From NCBI GenBank assembly GCA_031268195.1, contig JAIRXQ010000059.1, positions 1 to 64,000 on the forward strand: a stretch of DNA of 64,000 bases, in the 5' to 3' direction. The position numbers and the translations under genes were made by a program. The stretch is from Azoarcus sp. (GTDB lineage: Bacteria > Pseudomonadota > Gammaproteobacteria > Burkholderiales > Rhodocyclaceae). The notes under the pieces are model-generated. The model was not told the origin of the DNA. It searched no databases and was given only the letters and a program-made list of their open reading frames with translations. Of this stretch, positions 34,210-40,895 are shown piece by piece (position 1 is the stretch's first letter; every line of letters starts with the position of its first letter).

Positions 34210-35259
34210 ATGTCCGATTTCGCCACCCTCCTCACCGTCTGGCAGCGCGCCCACGGCCGCCACGGCCTGCCTTGGCAGAGCAGCCGCGATCCGTATCGGA
34301 TCTGGCTCTCCGAGATCATGTTGCAGCAGACGCAGGTGACGACGGTCATTCCCTACTATGCCCGCTTTCTCGCCCGCTTCCCCGACGTGGCGGCGCTGGC
34401 CGCCGCGCCGGTGGAGGACGTGATGGCACTGTGGAGCGGGCTGGGCTACTACGCCCGCGCCCGCAACCTGCACCGCGCCGCGTGCGCGGTGATGACGGAG
34501 CACGGTGGACGCTTCCCCGTCACGGCGACGGCGCTGGCCGGGTTGCCCGGCGTCGGGCGCTCCACGGCGGCGGCCATCGCTGCATTCGCCAGCAATGAGC
34601 GCGGAGCCATCCTCGATGGCAACGTCAAGCGCGTGCTTTGCCGCGCTTTCGGCATCGAGGGCTTTCCCGGCGAGCGCGCCGTGGAAGAACGCCTGTGGGC
34701 GCTGGCCGAATCCCTGCTGCCGTCGCACGGCGAGGACATCGGCATTTACCTTCAGGCGCAAATGGATCTGGGCGCAATCGTCTGCACCCGCACGCGCCCA
34801 GCCTGTGAACGCTGCCCGCTCGCCGGCGCATGCGCCGCCCGCCAGACGAACCGCGTCGCGGAACTGCCAACGCCCCGCCCCCGGAAAACCCCGCCGCGCC
34901 GCGCCGCGACACTGGCCGTCGTCATCCACGACGGCCGCGTGCTGCTCGAACGCCGCCCTCCCACTGGCATTTGGGGCGGCCTGCTGACGCTACCCGAGGT
35001 TCCCGCCGGGATGGCGTCCGATCTCTGGGCCGCACGCAATTTCGCCCTCGATGCCGCCTGTATCGAGGCGCGGGCGCTCGCACCGCTCACCCACACCTTC
35101 ACTCATTTCACGCTGGACATCGCCCCGTGGCGCATCGATCTGGCGCAAGCGCCCCGCGCGCAGGGCGCCCCGGCGTGGCAATGGCTGCCGCTCGCACAGC
35201 TTACCGGCGCCGCGCTGCCCACGCCGGTCAGGAAGATTCTGGAAGGCATCGCCGGATGA
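34210..35259 (+). CDS. mutY: A/G-specific adenine glycosylase
   Basis: LPWQSSRDPYRIWLSEIMLQQTQVTTVIPYY, LPGVGRSTAAAIAAFA, Fe-S cysteines and NUDIX-like C-terminus. Confidence 0.96.
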   Translation: MSDFATLLTVWQRAHGRHGLPWQSSRDPYRIWLSEIMLQQTQVTTVIPYYARFLARFPDVAALAAAPVEDVMALWSGLGYYARARNLHRAACAVMTEHGGRFPVTATALAGLPGVGRSTAAAIAAFASNERGAILDGNVKRVLCRAFGIEGFPGERAVEERLWALAESLLPSHGEDIGIYLQAQMDLGAIVCTRTRPACERCPLAGACAARQTNRVAELPTPRPRKTPPRRAATLAVVIHDGRVLLERRPPTGIWGGLLTLPEVPAGMASDLWAARNFALDAACIEARALAPLTHTFTHFTLDIAPWRIDLAQAPRAQGAPAWQWLPLAQLTGAALPTPVRKILEGIAG

Positions 35260-35445
35260 AACGGTCTTCGCACGCGAACCGGAAAAAGACCGTATTCAGT
35301 TCAATCCAGACATCGACACAGAAAATCTCGTCATACACGCTGCATCAAAAATCAAGTTCATCAGCCGCCTGAAAGCCACCGCTGCCGAATACAAGGTGAC
35401 ATGACGGCTTTTTCGGTCTCAGACTAATTCTTTTGGAGTCTTATC

Positions 35446-35800
35446 ATGTCTCATCCCGAATCACAACCTGCCGGCGTATTCGTCCCCAATGCGCTGCTGC
35501 ATGACGTCCGCCTGAGGCCAACGGAACGCAACGCCTGGATCGAGTTCCGCTTGCTGGCGGACAAAAACGGTATCGCCACCGTGAGCCACGAAGCGCTTCG
35601 CGCAGCCTTGCCCCGTACGCGCCGGGTTGCCAAAAGGCCGCTACGGCCACCGTGTCTGCGCGTCTCTCGGCCTGATCGGCTGCCGCCGCAACCCGCTCAC
35701 CGGCTTTGCGATAGCCGGTTGCTATACCCGTGCGCACCAAGCCCTTGTCCTTCGCCGAGGCGTGCCTGGACTTTGGAAATCAAGGTTGGCAGTCCGGGAC
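35446..35800 (+). pseudogene. Frameshifted remnant of a STY4528-like island replication/HTH protein
   Basis: GVFVPNALLHDVRLRPTERNAWIEFRLLADKNGIATVSHEALR, then other frames give KAATATVSARLSA, GLIGCRRNPLTGFAIAG and KPLSFAEACLDFG. Confidence 0.55.
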
Positions 35801-35809
35801 TGGATTTCT

Positions 35810-36664
35810 CTACGCAGGCGCTTCTCCGGCCGCTAAAAAGTCATTCTGCCCACCGTCTCGCAGGCTAATGTACTCCAGACGCCATTGATCGAAGCGACGC
35901 ACATCGGCGAGGGTCATTTCGGTATCCGCCACCGCTTCACAAGTATCGAGAGCGATTTCTGTGGCACCGTCAGGTGGGCCGTAAGCTTGTTCGAACAAGG
36001 AGCGCAGTTCGTCGGCGACACGTTCGGCAGACTCTCTCGCTTGCCTAGCGCCCTCTTCGGCGTCGTACACGACAAACACACTCAAGCCGTAAGGTTCGCC
36101 GTCTGCTGCTTCAACATTTCGTTGATCGCCAAAGTCGAAAAACAACCCGATCAGATGCTTTGCTTCGGGCTCCAGAATTTTGGCAATCTGCTTTTCGACA
36201 GTTTTTTTGCTGGAGATTTTATTGCGTAGCCGCCTCTCGAACTCATTGGGAAAAGCGGCCCGGCCATACCGCGCGGCAAGCCATTGTTTTAGCATGCGCT
36301 TTTCGTTATCCGGCAGGGCGCGTATTTTATCTCTGCGTGCTTTTGCAATGAAATCGGCTTTCGGCACAGTACGGCGATTGGCATGCCGAAGCTCAAGCGT
36401 TATCGGCTCGGCGGCGTCCAAACCTTCCCAGGTCAGGTGGAGCCGTCTCGGGTTCCTGCAATGGGAAACCCGCGGGTCGGATTCTTCAACCACCTCGCCG
36501 ACGATGACTTCAACAAACGGCTCGTCCTCATGGACCAGATCGCAATCATGGGTGATGACGATGGCGCAACGGTTGGCTTCAGACGCCTCGATCAAGCCCA
36601 GCGTTGCTGCGGCTTCGCATGTCAGGAGATTCCCCTGTCGCCAGTCCATATCGCGCGTCGGCAT
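35810..36664 (-). CDS. Uncharacterised protein with THDCD motif, third gene of an accessory operon
   Basis: Intact 284-aa ORF (AIVITHDCDLVHEDEPFVEVIVGEVVEE); 18 bp after the HTH gene. Confidence 0.7.
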   Translation of the reverse strand: MPTRDMDWRQGNLLTCEAAATLGLIEASEANRCAIVITHDCDLVHEDEPFVEVIVGEVVEESDPRVSHCRNPRRLHLTWEGLDAAEPITLELRHANRRTVPKADFIAKARRDKIRALPDNEKRMLKQWLAARYGRAAFPNEFERRLRNKISSKKTVEKQIAKILEPEAKHLIGLFFDFGDQRNVEAADGEPYGLSVFVVYDAEEGARQARESAERVADELRSLFEQAYGPPDGATEIALDTCEAVADTEMTLADVRRFDQWRLEYISLRDGGQNDFLAAGEAPA

Positions 36665-36682
36665 CCGTCGCCCCCGAGCCTG

Positions 36683-37306
36683 TCACTCGGGGTGTCCGGG
36701 GATGGACGCCGTTGCGAGCCAATCGTCCGTGGGCTTCGCGTTCGATTTTGCCATGCTGGAACGGTCGTAAGCGGCATCCATCTTTCTGGATTCGTCGATC
36801 AGATTGTCGATATGCGATTTTTCGAGTCGATCCGCCGCGACCAGATCCAGCAGGGATTGGCTATTGAAGGCTTTCATCTTCACTATCGCGTGAGCATGCC
36901 TGATTTGGGCGTCCCGAAAGGCGTCGGCCACTTCACTGAGTTTGCTGATTCGTCCGGACTTGCCCGGTTCCGGGGTGGCCTCGCCATTCATCCATTTGTA
37001 GACCGCTTGGCGGGAAACGCCAAACACAGCAGCCAAGTCGGAAATGGACGGTTTCAGCGCCTGTTTGATGTTGGCGAGGTGTTCAGGGGCACGGCGAAGA
37101 TCCAAGCGCGCCGCTTGGCTGTCATCCATGACAACCTTGATGGACGTGCGCGCTTCCACCATGTGCAAGACTTCACGGCGGAAAACATCGAGTACGCTGC
37201 CCGTGCCGAAAATAAACGGACGCGGTTCTGCATCCTCCCCAGCGTTCGGTAACTGAAACCCAGGACGCCAAGCGTAAAAACCCTGCTCTCGATGTGCGAC
37301 GTCCAT
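36683..37306 (-). CDS. HTH-domain protein
   Basis: ISDLAAVFGVSRQAVYKWMNGEATPEPGKSGRISKLSEVADAF; starts 6 bp after the upstream stop. Confidence 0.75.
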   Translation of the reverse strand: MDVAHREQGFYAWRPGFQLPNAGEDAEPRPFIFGTGSVLDVFRREVLHMVEARTSIKVVMDDSQAARLDLRRAPEHLANIKQALKPSISDLAAVFGVSRQAVYKWMNGEATPEPGKSGRISKLSEVADAFRDAQIRHAHAIVKMKAFNSQSLLDLVAADRLEKSHIDNLIDESRKMDAAYDRSSMAKSNAKPTDDWLATASIPGHPE

Positions 37307-37312
37307 GACGTG

Positions 37313-38155
37313 TTACTCCCCTGTTATCAAGCCCCACGCTTTCCTTGCGTAGTCGGTCGTGGTTGCGACAAATACGGACTTGATGATTCCGTGTAGCGAC
37401 AACAACTGTTCGTCGAGTCTGTTCATATCGAGAGGCATCTGGCCCTCGACGAAATGGTCCGTGTCGATGACAACATGCTCAAGCGGTTCTTTTACCACGA
37501 ACGCCGGGTTCACTGCCAAGCCGTTGGGGGCGATGTCCACCGGGTACCCGAGGGGCGCGTTCATCCGGTATACGCGCGTCACGAGCGTGCCGGTCGACAA
37601 CAGAGGCTTGACCTCAGTTGTGAACATTGACTCAGTCATGGTGTATCGCCGCGTTGCATCGAATTTGATGCCGTGCAAGCCTCCGACAAGGTACTCTTCA
37701 ACCGTCTCGCCATTGCGCGGCAAGACCGCATCCAAGTAGCGCAGCCCCAGTCTGCTGACGTGATCGAGCTTCACGACATCATGAACCGTTTTCAACCCGG
37801 CCAGCAGTTCTGGTATGAATTGTTCATGGGTCTGGTAGTGGATCGTGTGAAACGTGATACCCCATGGCGCGAGAATGAATCCCGCCGTTCCGTCGCTCCG
37901 GGTCAGCAGCCAGGAAGTGGTTTGCTCGACTTGAGGCGATGCGCCCTGCGCCTGCCCATGCCCCGGAATCACCAACTGTGTCAACTGTTGCTTGCCGAAC
38001 TGCGGATACTCCCCACGCAGTCGATCTTGAATTTCGTCGACATACTTCGACATCATGTTGACGGGGTTGAAACGCGCCTGCGCCAGCGCGTAGTAGACAG
38101 GTGCGTTCGACATCCACTTGCTCACCGGCATCTCCGTTTCAGGCTGACAGTTCAA
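37313..38155 (-). CDS. TIGR04255-like family protein
   Basis: NAPVYYALAQARFNPVNMMSKYVDEIQDRLRGEYPQF and LDHVSRLGLRYLDAV architecture. Confidence 0.7.
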   Translation of the reverse strand: MNCQPETEMPVSKWMSNAPVYYALAQARFNPVNMMSKYVDEIQDRLRGEYPQFGKQQLTQLVIPGHGQAQGASPQVEQTTSWLLTRSDGTAGFILAPWGITFHTIHYQTHEQFIPELLAGLKTVHDVVKLDHVSRLGLRYLDAVLPRNGETVEEYLVGGLHGIKFDATRRYTMTESMFTTEVKPLLSTGTLVTRVYRMNAPLGYPVDIAPNGLAVNPAFVVKEPLEHVVIDTDHFVEGQMPLDMNRLDEQLLSLHGIIKSVFVATTTDYARKAWGLITGE

Positions 38156-38163
38156 TTTTCAGT

Positions 38164-38715
38164 TTACACTACGGTTGTCAAACGCGCCGATAAATAGTTG
38201 CAAGATGCCGCGACCGAGCAGCCTACCCTTGGCACAACCGAAGCAATCATCATGCGTTCGCTCGTGGCGTTCGTGATGTCTCGCCAACCCATCAGCCAAC
38301 CACGTCGCCAGCCTGGGTTTCCCATGGCAATGCCGTGCGCTCTGTCGCCAGGCGCATTACCCCGTCGCCTGTTACAGGCTTGCTTTGATCGGCCACACGC
38401 AGGAAATAGCGACCATCGGTGGTCGAAGCGACGGTCATTCAATGTATTGACCGCCGTTGGCTGCGGTCAAGATATTGGGCAGAGCCGTCACATTGACAGT
38501 ACGCTCGGCGAGCTTGCGTCGTAGCGTATCCGGCAGGTCAGGAGGAACTTGCTGGCTTGGTGGAGGAGCACTCCGATCGTCCTCGATACCGATCAGCAGA
38601 TGTCCTCCCGTGGCGTTGGCGAATGCTACGCAGTCCCTGGCAGACTCGCTCCAGCTGGCTGTCTTGCCCTGTACCAAACGCAGCGATTTTTTGTCGAGTA
38701 AGTGTCGGCGTCAAT
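38164..38715 (-). pseudogene. Chimeric remnant: AlbA_2/Schlafen-type ATP-binding protein fragment plus DNA methyltransferase-like fragment
   Basis: LLDKKSLRLVQGKTASWSESARDCVAFANATGGHLLIGIEDD; frameshift to TDGRYFLRVADQSKPVTGDGVMRLATERTALPWET; then GWRDITNATSERMMIASVVPRVG, typical of Eco57I-type/N-6 methylases. Confidence 0.65.
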
Positions 38716-38736
38716 GGACGTCCATGGCCCCCCGCA

Positions 38737-40098
38737 TCACTTCCCGATGCAAAAGCGGCTGAAGATCGCTCCCAACAGATCGTCCGCCGTGAATTCGCCG
38801 GTGATTTCGGCCAGGGCATTTTGGGTGAGGCGCAGGTTTTCCGCGCACAACTCCAGTGCGGGATGGGGGGCTTCGAGTTCGGCGCGGGCGGCGTTCAGGT
38901 GCGTGGCCCCGGCTTCCAGCGCCTGAACGTGGCGGGCGCGGGCGGTGAAGGTGTCTTCGGTGTTCTGCCAGCCCGCGATCTCCAGGAGCGCGGCTTCCAG
39001 CAAGTCCATGCCCTGCCCGGTTTTGGCGGACAGGGCGAGGGTGACGGTTTCGCCTTCGCGCTGCCTGGAAGGCGGCTCGGCGGCGAGGTCGATTTTGTTG
39101 CGTACGATGAGGCGCGGCAGGTTTGTGGGCAAGCGCTCGAGAATGGCGCGGTCCGCCGCTGTCAGGCCCGTGCGGGCATCGAGCAGCAACAGGGCGAGGT
39201 CGGCTTCCCGCACGGCTTTCCAGGCGCGCTCGATGCCGATTTTTTCGACTTCGTCCTCGGTGGCGCGCAGCCCGGCGGTATCGACGATGTGCAGCGGGAT
39301 GCCGCGGATCTGGATCGAGGATTTGAGCGCATCGCGCGTGGTGCCGGGAACTGGCGTGACGATGGCGAGATCGTCGCCCGCGAGCCGGTTCAGGAGCGAC
39401 GATTTACCGACGTTGGGCTGGCCGACGAGGACGACCGCCAGCCCCGCTTGCAGCAGTTTGCCTTGCCGCGCGCGGGCGCGCACTTCGGTCAGGCGCGCAT
39501 CGAGCCGCGCGATGCGTCCGAGGGCGTCGGCCTGTGCGAGGAAATCGATTTCTTCTTCAGGGAAATCGAGCGTGGCTTCGAGCAGCAGGCGCAGGCCGGT
39601 GAGCTCATCGACCAAGGCATGCACGGCGTGCGAAAACTCGCCCTGTAGCGAGCGCACCGCGCTGCGGGCGGCGGCGGCGGTAGCGGCGTCGATCAGGTCG
39701 GCCACGGCTTCGGCCTGTGCGAGATCGAGCTTGCCGTTCAGGAAGGCGCGGCGCGTGAATTCACCCGGCTGCGCGAGGCGCGCGCCGAGTTCGACGCAAC
39801 GCGCGAGCAGCAGATTCAGCACGACCGGGCCGCCGTGTCCGTGCAGTTCGAGCACGTCCTCGCCAGTGAAGGAGGCGGGCGCGGGGAAGTAAAGCAGCAG
39901 GCCGCGGTCGATGAGCGTGCCGTCGGCGGCCTCGAAGTCGGCCCGCCCGGCATGGCGCGGCGCAGGTGTTTTGCCGGTGAGCGCGGCAGCCAGCGGCGCG
40001 AGGTTCAACCCGGAGAGGCGCACGATGCCGATGCCGCCGCGTCCCGGCGCGGTGGCGATGGCAGCGATGATATCGGCTGCGGGAACGGCAGTTGTCAT
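38737..40098 (-). CDS. mnmE: tRNA modification GTPase MnmE
   Basis: [52 protein letters not shown]-terminal FCIGK. Confidence 0.97.
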
Positions 40099-40895
40099 GC
40101 TAACGCCATGGCATCGAACTGCTTTTGCAATCTGCCTGCGGTGATGCGCACGATCTTTTTGTTCTTGCGCGCAATCACGAGCGCCGTGCCGGTCTGGATG
40201 GCGGCGCGGCGCGCTTCGGCCGCCGCGCGCAGCAAAGCGGGGTAGGCGCCGCGTACGGTTTCGTCGTTAGTCGCGCCAAGATCGGTGCAGGTCTGCGAGC
40301 GCCAGGCCGGGGCGTAGGCGGATTTGGCCATCAGGCGATGCTGCCATGCCACCGCCGACCAGCCATCGATGACGGCGCGGGTCGGGTTCTCGCCCAGCGC
40401 CAGAAAGCGCGGCGGCTCGGAGAGGTTGTCGAACTTCACCCATATATCGACCGCATCGCGGTAATGCTGCTCGAAGTTGCGGCGGCCCGCCTCGAAGCGC
40501 CGTCGCACGGTTTCTTCCGGGATGGCGAGCCCGCCCTGGTGCACGCGCTCCCTGACCCGGGCCAGCGATGCTTCGGCGCTGGCCAGATCGAGAAAGAACA
40601 TGTGCACGCGATAGCCTTCCCGCTGCCATTGTGCGATCAGGTGCAGATAGCTCAAGCCGGAGAGTGTGGCCTCGAACGCGAAGGATTCGCCGCGCCGCGC
40701 GCAGTCGTGGATTTCCTGCAAAGCCAGCCGTCCGGCGCGGGAGGCGGCCGCTTCTGGCGCGAACGGCGATAGCCCGACGGCGATCAGGTCGGCGTTGATG
40801 TAGCGTGGACAAGCGGCCTCGTTGGGCAGGAATGTACGCGCGAACGTGGTTTTTCCTGCTCCGTGCGGGCCGGCGATGACGACGATTTTCTTCAA
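40095..40895 (-). CDS. Zeta-toxin-like P-loop kinase, TTG start
   Basis: [58 protein letters not shown]. Confidence 0.88.

Follow-up and report, generated by a model that had tools for sequence, protein, structure and literature searches.

We have identified a mobile cassette of three adjacent genes, encoding a TIGR04255 protein, a helix–turn–helix (HTH) protein and a protein with a THDCD motif, in the window (the whole 64,000-nucleotide stretch of Azoarcus sp. DNA analysed here). From its position, mobility and architecture, we consider it highly probable that the cassette is a conflict module. A preliminary description, made from the letters of the window, had offered it as a candidate toxin–antitoxin-like conflict system, and this proposal is now supported by the co-occurrence of the genes, an operator in front of them, a predicted MazF/CcdB fold in the THDCD protein and the toxins that related operons carry in third position.

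The cassette, its insert and its distribution

The three frames are tightly packed, as had been described, and are transcribed in the order TIGR04255–HTH–THDCD, separated by 6 and 18 bp (Table 1). The list of open reading frames also offers a TTG start at 38155 for the TIGR04255 gene. In comparisons with seven relatives at 51–72% protein identity, dN/dS was 0.07–0.13 for TIGR04255, 0.18–0.29 for HTH and 0.08–0.18 for THDCD; because dS is near saturation in most pairs the values are rough, but the purifying direction is firm. All three genes are thus under purifying selection, which bears out what the preliminary description had read from their open frames. Its picture of decay everywhere around them holds only inside the 3.5-kb insert, the flanking core genes mutY and mnmE being intact. 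In a congener (G659) these two genes are convergent with zero intergenic DNA, and the insert at the window locus was therefore acquired.

Outside the cassette proper, the insert also holds the AlbA_2/Schlafen fragment, left over from a different mobile or defence gene. Beyond the insert and directly behind mnmE, a minus-strand open reading frame (40095–40895) has Zeta_toxin and AAA_33 matches in Pfam, and could be a stand-alone kinase or toxin relative.

Table 1. Features of the cassette locus in the window
Feature	Position	Strand	Remarks
mutY	34210–35259		intact core gene flanking the insert (Pfam)
Acquired insert	35260–38736	.	3.5 kb; cassette plus relic scraps, mutY and mnmE on either side
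THDCD gene	35810–36664	minus	284 aa; motif WRQG...[ST]HDCD
HTH gene	36683–37306	minus	Pfam HTH_3
TIGR04255 gene	37313–38125	minus	preferred start GTG, preceded by the ribosome-binding site GGAG
Operator, direct repeat	38161–38180	minus	TGACAACC-GTAG-TGTAAACT; ~36–55 nt upstream of the TIGR04255 gene
AlbA_2/Schlafen fragment	38435–38677	minus	80 aa; Pfam PF04326, E 2.9e-6, partial
mnmE	38737–40098		intact core gene flanking the insert (Pfam)

Co-occurrence of the three genes reaches past close relatives, a point on which the preliminary description had staked its reading: the fixed order was maintained across phyla, plasmids and prophages. Scans of genome and viral contigs found TIGR04255–HTH–THDCD in this order at 123 of 126 loci, the other three being broken off by a contig end. 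A tblastn search with the THDCD protein returned 11 plasmid and phage records, and in each of the 10 that were inspected the TIGR04255 gene, the middle gene and the THDCD gene lay on one strand in constant order. Records with the cassette came from Robbsia, Meiothermus (Deinococcota), cyanobacteria including Gloeocapsa, Klebsiella, Vibrio and Pseudomonas, and an Acinetobacter record filed as a phage also carries it. Its hosts include Pseudomonadota, Deinococcota and cyanobacteria, frequently through plasmids or prophages; the phylum labels of some metagenome-assembled genomes may reflect contamination, and the plasmid records are the safer guide there. A descriptive scan of the genes neighbouring the cassette loci showed functions of phages and mobile elements; defence genes were only scattered among them, without clear enrichment.

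THDCD was present in 10 of 274 sampled genomes of the window's class, each time adjacent to TIGR04255, yet TIGR04255 itself was present in 28; THDCD therefore goes with TIGR04255, and not the reverse. The THDCD gene is missing from 11 of 12 congeners and the twelfth (G661) has a fragment only. This fragment (L349) corresponds to the C-terminal part of THDCD at 62% identity and is a remnant of the cassette in that congener.

In E. coli the cassette was found in 18 of 5426 genomes, in a P2-like prophage, between the gpA/DinI-like region (a DinI-like gene following that for the replication endonuclease) and the portal gene Q; the flanks of this slot are present in more than 1200 genomes. The cargo in other strains comprises retron Ec78 with PtuAB, a SecB-bearing three-gene cassette (L148), a PIN gene with DUF6236, a P-loop NTPase with ParA and SIR2, a putative Abi protein, and DUF262 with a HEPN-like nuclease. 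According to main-text passages of Rousset et al. (2022; PMC9122126), the gpA–gpQ interval of P2 prophages is an anti-phage hotspot, part of whose cargo has other functions. The systems given in those passages, old/tin, retrons and others, occupy the same slot as the E. coli cassette but consist of different genes, and the TIGR04255 cassette is not named there, supplementary tables aside. The E. coli copy, though not the window copy, thus lies in a known defence hotspot. This location is positional evidence for defence, not proof.

Operator and HTH protein

A family operator with the consensus TGTCAACC-N4-TGTAAACT was recovered by EM at 84 of 87 non-redundant loci, 34–98 nt upstream of the TIGR04255 gene, and scored 27.9 bits against 6.8 in shuffles. 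The 7-mer GTTTACA occurred in 60 of 78 upstream regions and in at most 11 in shuffles. Successive operator units lie 12 and 7 nt apart, in many cases forming two pairs, and were also recovered in Gloeocapsa and Meiothermus, both outside the discovery set. In the Vibrio and Acinetobacter copies, a 12-bp direct repeat has the altered half-site GTAA (p 0.003–0.008 in shuffles, for a half-site chosen after viewing the sequences), and the recognition helix of the HTH protein there has RK instead of RQ. Because the operator was found upstream at 113 of 117 loci and downstream at none of the 117, we ruled out that it is a transposon end.

When 2.9 million viral contigs were scanned with the motif alone, 50 contigs were returned, 37 of which had TIGR04255 within 200 nt. 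Two viral contigs (L321, L339) contain TGTCAACC/TGTAAACT repeats with no TIGR04255 gene downstream. The operator in front of the window cassette is the sole match in its 2.5-Mb genome, so that no further regulated gene is visible.

Other classes of TIGR04255 loci have no such operator. For this reason TIGR04255 itself was rejected as the simplest candidate for its reader, and the simplest view, drawn from sequence comparison, is that the HTH protein would bind it. The identification of the middle gene product as an HTH protein was confirmed by Pfam (HTH_3, E 4.9e-5), with an HTH_3/Xre-like core at residues ~87–122; R99, Q100 and W105, in the recognition-helix region, are invariant across 58 homologues. 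PADLOC-DB 2023 gave only weak HTH cross-matches to this protein. In its small size and close packing, with an HTH gene and an operator of its own, the operon has the layout of a type II-like toxin–antitoxin system.

A moderately hydrophobic segment is found at the N terminus of 38 of 61 HTH homologues, whereas one of the 61 C-terminal parts has such a stretch. It is the N-terminal segment that TIGR04255 could hold, if chaperone addiction (PMC5105189) is taken as the model. We keep chaperone addiction as a possibility and rejected it as a firm reading, because the window copy lacks the segment and most homologues do not beat composition shuffles, as only 15 of 61 do.

The THDCD protein and exchange of the third gene

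The preliminary description could not place the THDCD protein in a known defence family, and this still holds: Pfam, NCBIfam and PADLOC-DB 2023 gave no match, a PDB sequence search gave no named family, and the sole family match was to phrog_34320, an unannotated PHROG (E 1e-10). When its AF2 model (pLDDT 87.6) was searched with Foldseek, eight of the 10 best PDB matches carried the name MazF or CcdB, the remaining two being toxin–antitoxin entries as well; the matches to MazF/CcdB extended over ~130 residues, with E 2.6e-3 to 0.05, probability 0.98–1.00 and target TM 0.55–0.63. In BFVD, PemK-like phage proteins ranked 2, 3 and 6. The N-terminal ~130 residues are accordingly modelled as a MazF/CcdB (SH3-like) domain, a predicted toxin-like fold, with a C-terminal extension after it.

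The THDCD protein had no Pfam match to PF02452, the MazF/PemK family, up to E 1, and its hhalign comparison with a PemK profile was not significant (P 0.02–0.03); the alignment keeps register, with VVISHD on the PemK LIIS strand. A bridging SNTCDI family aligned with PemK in the same register, again not significantly (P 0.038), and a search of viral contigs with an SNTCDI protein found nothing. The catalytic residues of MazF we take to be Arg and Thr. The equivalent THDCD positions, assigned from the profile register, vary (R in 13% at position 32; G, A, E, R, L or V at positions 56–58), so RNase activity of THDCD is not implied, and we rejected its identification as a canonical MazF RNase. 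The conserved set of THDCD is W8, Q10, G11, D40-C41-D42, E52, R73, W128, Y133 and R135, with Q10, D40, C41, D42, W128, Y133 and R135 invariant in 75 sequences.

The first gene product, previously called TIGR04255-like, is a true member of the NCBIfam family, far above the cut-off (154.6 bits against 30; E 3.9e-45; residues 15–275 on model positions 2–252); the family entry, 'sporadTIGR04255', gives no function. PADLOC-DB 2023 had no match to it. The AF2 model (pLDDT 92.8) had no convincing structural match in Foldseek, which yielded weak AdoMetDC-like ones, the best with E 3e-4 but TM 0.27. No SecB-like chaperone appeared for it in Pfam or NCBIfam, or among the 50 Foldseek matches listed.

We examined the third gene at 55 TIGR04255 loci beyond the first THDCD set; the counts are approximate, coming from simple open reading frame calling and regular expressions. 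At most of these loci the three-gene plan is kept in close spacing: TIGR04255, then a middle gene, then a third. The third gene encodes an SxxCD protein at 13 loci, and hhalign matches a profile of four such sequences (L245, L279, L281, L298) to THDCD with E 5e-28. It is a PIN gene at three loci by Pfam (L247, L255, L258), a canonical PemK/MazF gene at one (L273; PF02452, E 1e-18), HEPN-like at three as judged by eye, where Pfam found none (L259, L290, L296), and papain-like, with the motif GLTCxTF, at four (L244, L246, L269, L270; the two tested had no Pfam match). The largest other class, the WDG type, comprises 22 loci (L248–L251, L256, L260–L266, L268, L278, L280, L282, L287, L291–L294, L297), in which a 'WDGYGA' middle protein is combined with a third protein of ~130–170 aa (AFxPxxxxxxSVxR...) that has no known domain or function. 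Firmest are the PIN and PemK examples, which place known RNase-toxin families at the position of THDCD.

At the PemK locus (L273, 1–5576), the TIGR04255 gene is followed by genes for a 95-aa protein and the canonical PemK. A PglZ-like gene and a large DUF1156-type DNA methyltransferase-like gene, both assigned by eye, flank the operon, and the region is possibly a defence island.

A proposed mechanism and its alternatives

We lean towards the view that the cassette is a tripartite toxin–antitoxin or abortive-infection module. Its toxic effector would be THDCD, as a divergent MazF/CcdB-fold relative that is extended at its C terminus and has conserved residues of its own; the target is probably RNA or another nucleic acid. 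The HTH protein would repress the operon by binding the direct repeats, of 12-bp period, that immediately precede it and, as antitoxin, would probably contact and neutralise THDCD. TIGR04255 would act as a sensor or chaperone on which the competence of the HTH antitoxin depends, a guess prompted by its being the constant part while the effector and the middle gene vary. Phage or mobile-element entry would disturb TIGR04255 and so free the THDCD effector.

More tentatively, and with slightly less than even confidence, we suggest that a large class of tripartite conflict modules, so far undescribed, may have TIGR04255 as its shared sensor or chaperone. Such a class would have sub-class-specific middle antitoxins and freely exchanged effectors, namely MazF-fold SxxCD, PIN, PemK, HEPN-like, papain-like and WDG-type proteins, and the HTH sub-class would be the one whose 12-bp-periodic operator is conserved across phyla.

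This arrangement invites comparison with TAC modules (HigBA1–SecB-TA of M. tuberculosis, PMC5105189; CmdTAC, PMC11618068), which likewise have three co-directional genes with an HTH protein in the antitoxin position. Further likenesses are the moderately hydrophobic terminal segment of many cassette HTH homologues, which a chaperone could hold, and the SecB-bearing cassette in the same P2 slot. In contrast to TAC, the third partner of the cassette is TIGR04255 and not SecB, the order is hub–HTH–effector, the hydrophobic segment is at the N terminus and is not present in the window copy, and the toxin belongs to another family. MazEF and PemIK are approached by the predicted fold of the THDCD N-terminal domain, by the operon's having its own operator and by the one TIGR04255 operon with a canonical PemK. 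The cassette departs from them in that THDCD has no significant sequence match and does not conserve the MazF catalytic Arg and Thr, has a C-terminal extension of ~150 aa, and is accompanied by an extra TIGR04255 gene and by an HTH_3 protein instead of a MazE-type antitoxin.

The same toxin–antitoxin chemistry might have been selected for the stability of a carrier and not for phage blocking, making the cassette a plasmid or prophage addiction module. Its frequency on plasmids and prophages, and its having its own operator, fit this explanation; the cassette also occurs, however, in small insertions within chromosomes, that of the window among them, where it is under purifying selection, and the E. 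coli copy occupies a slot known for defence cargo. We regard addiction as unlikely. The absence of the MazF catalytic residues, together with an HTH protein and an operator that make up a regulatory circuit, could indicate a non-toxic regulatory or superinfection-exclusion unit, in which THDCD would be an RNA- or DNA-binding SH3-like adaptor and the operon would control some other phage or host process. That no second operator exists in the window's genome argues against this, as do the related operons in which PIN and PemK toxins take the place of THDCD, and we consider such a unit improbable. An ordinary metabolic or housekeeping operon kept by chance might also have three intact genes under purifying selection, but we think this very improbable given that the cassette is sporadic, absent from nearly all congeners and found in mobile locations, and that neither Pfam nor NCBIfam assigns any of the three genes to a metabolic family.

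In the literature searched, most subscription papers, bioRxiv preprints and supplementary tables aside, we found no mention of TIGR04255 or of the accessions tested, and no description of the fixed three-gene context, the operator or the exchangeable third gene. Because E. coli carries the cassette in P2-like prophages, the idea can be put directly to the test on standard phage panels; the operator provides a cheap search key for further members. If the proposal is correct, TIGR04255, a widely shared and uncharacterised family, would acquire a function as the component that modular toxin–antitoxin-like systems have in common.
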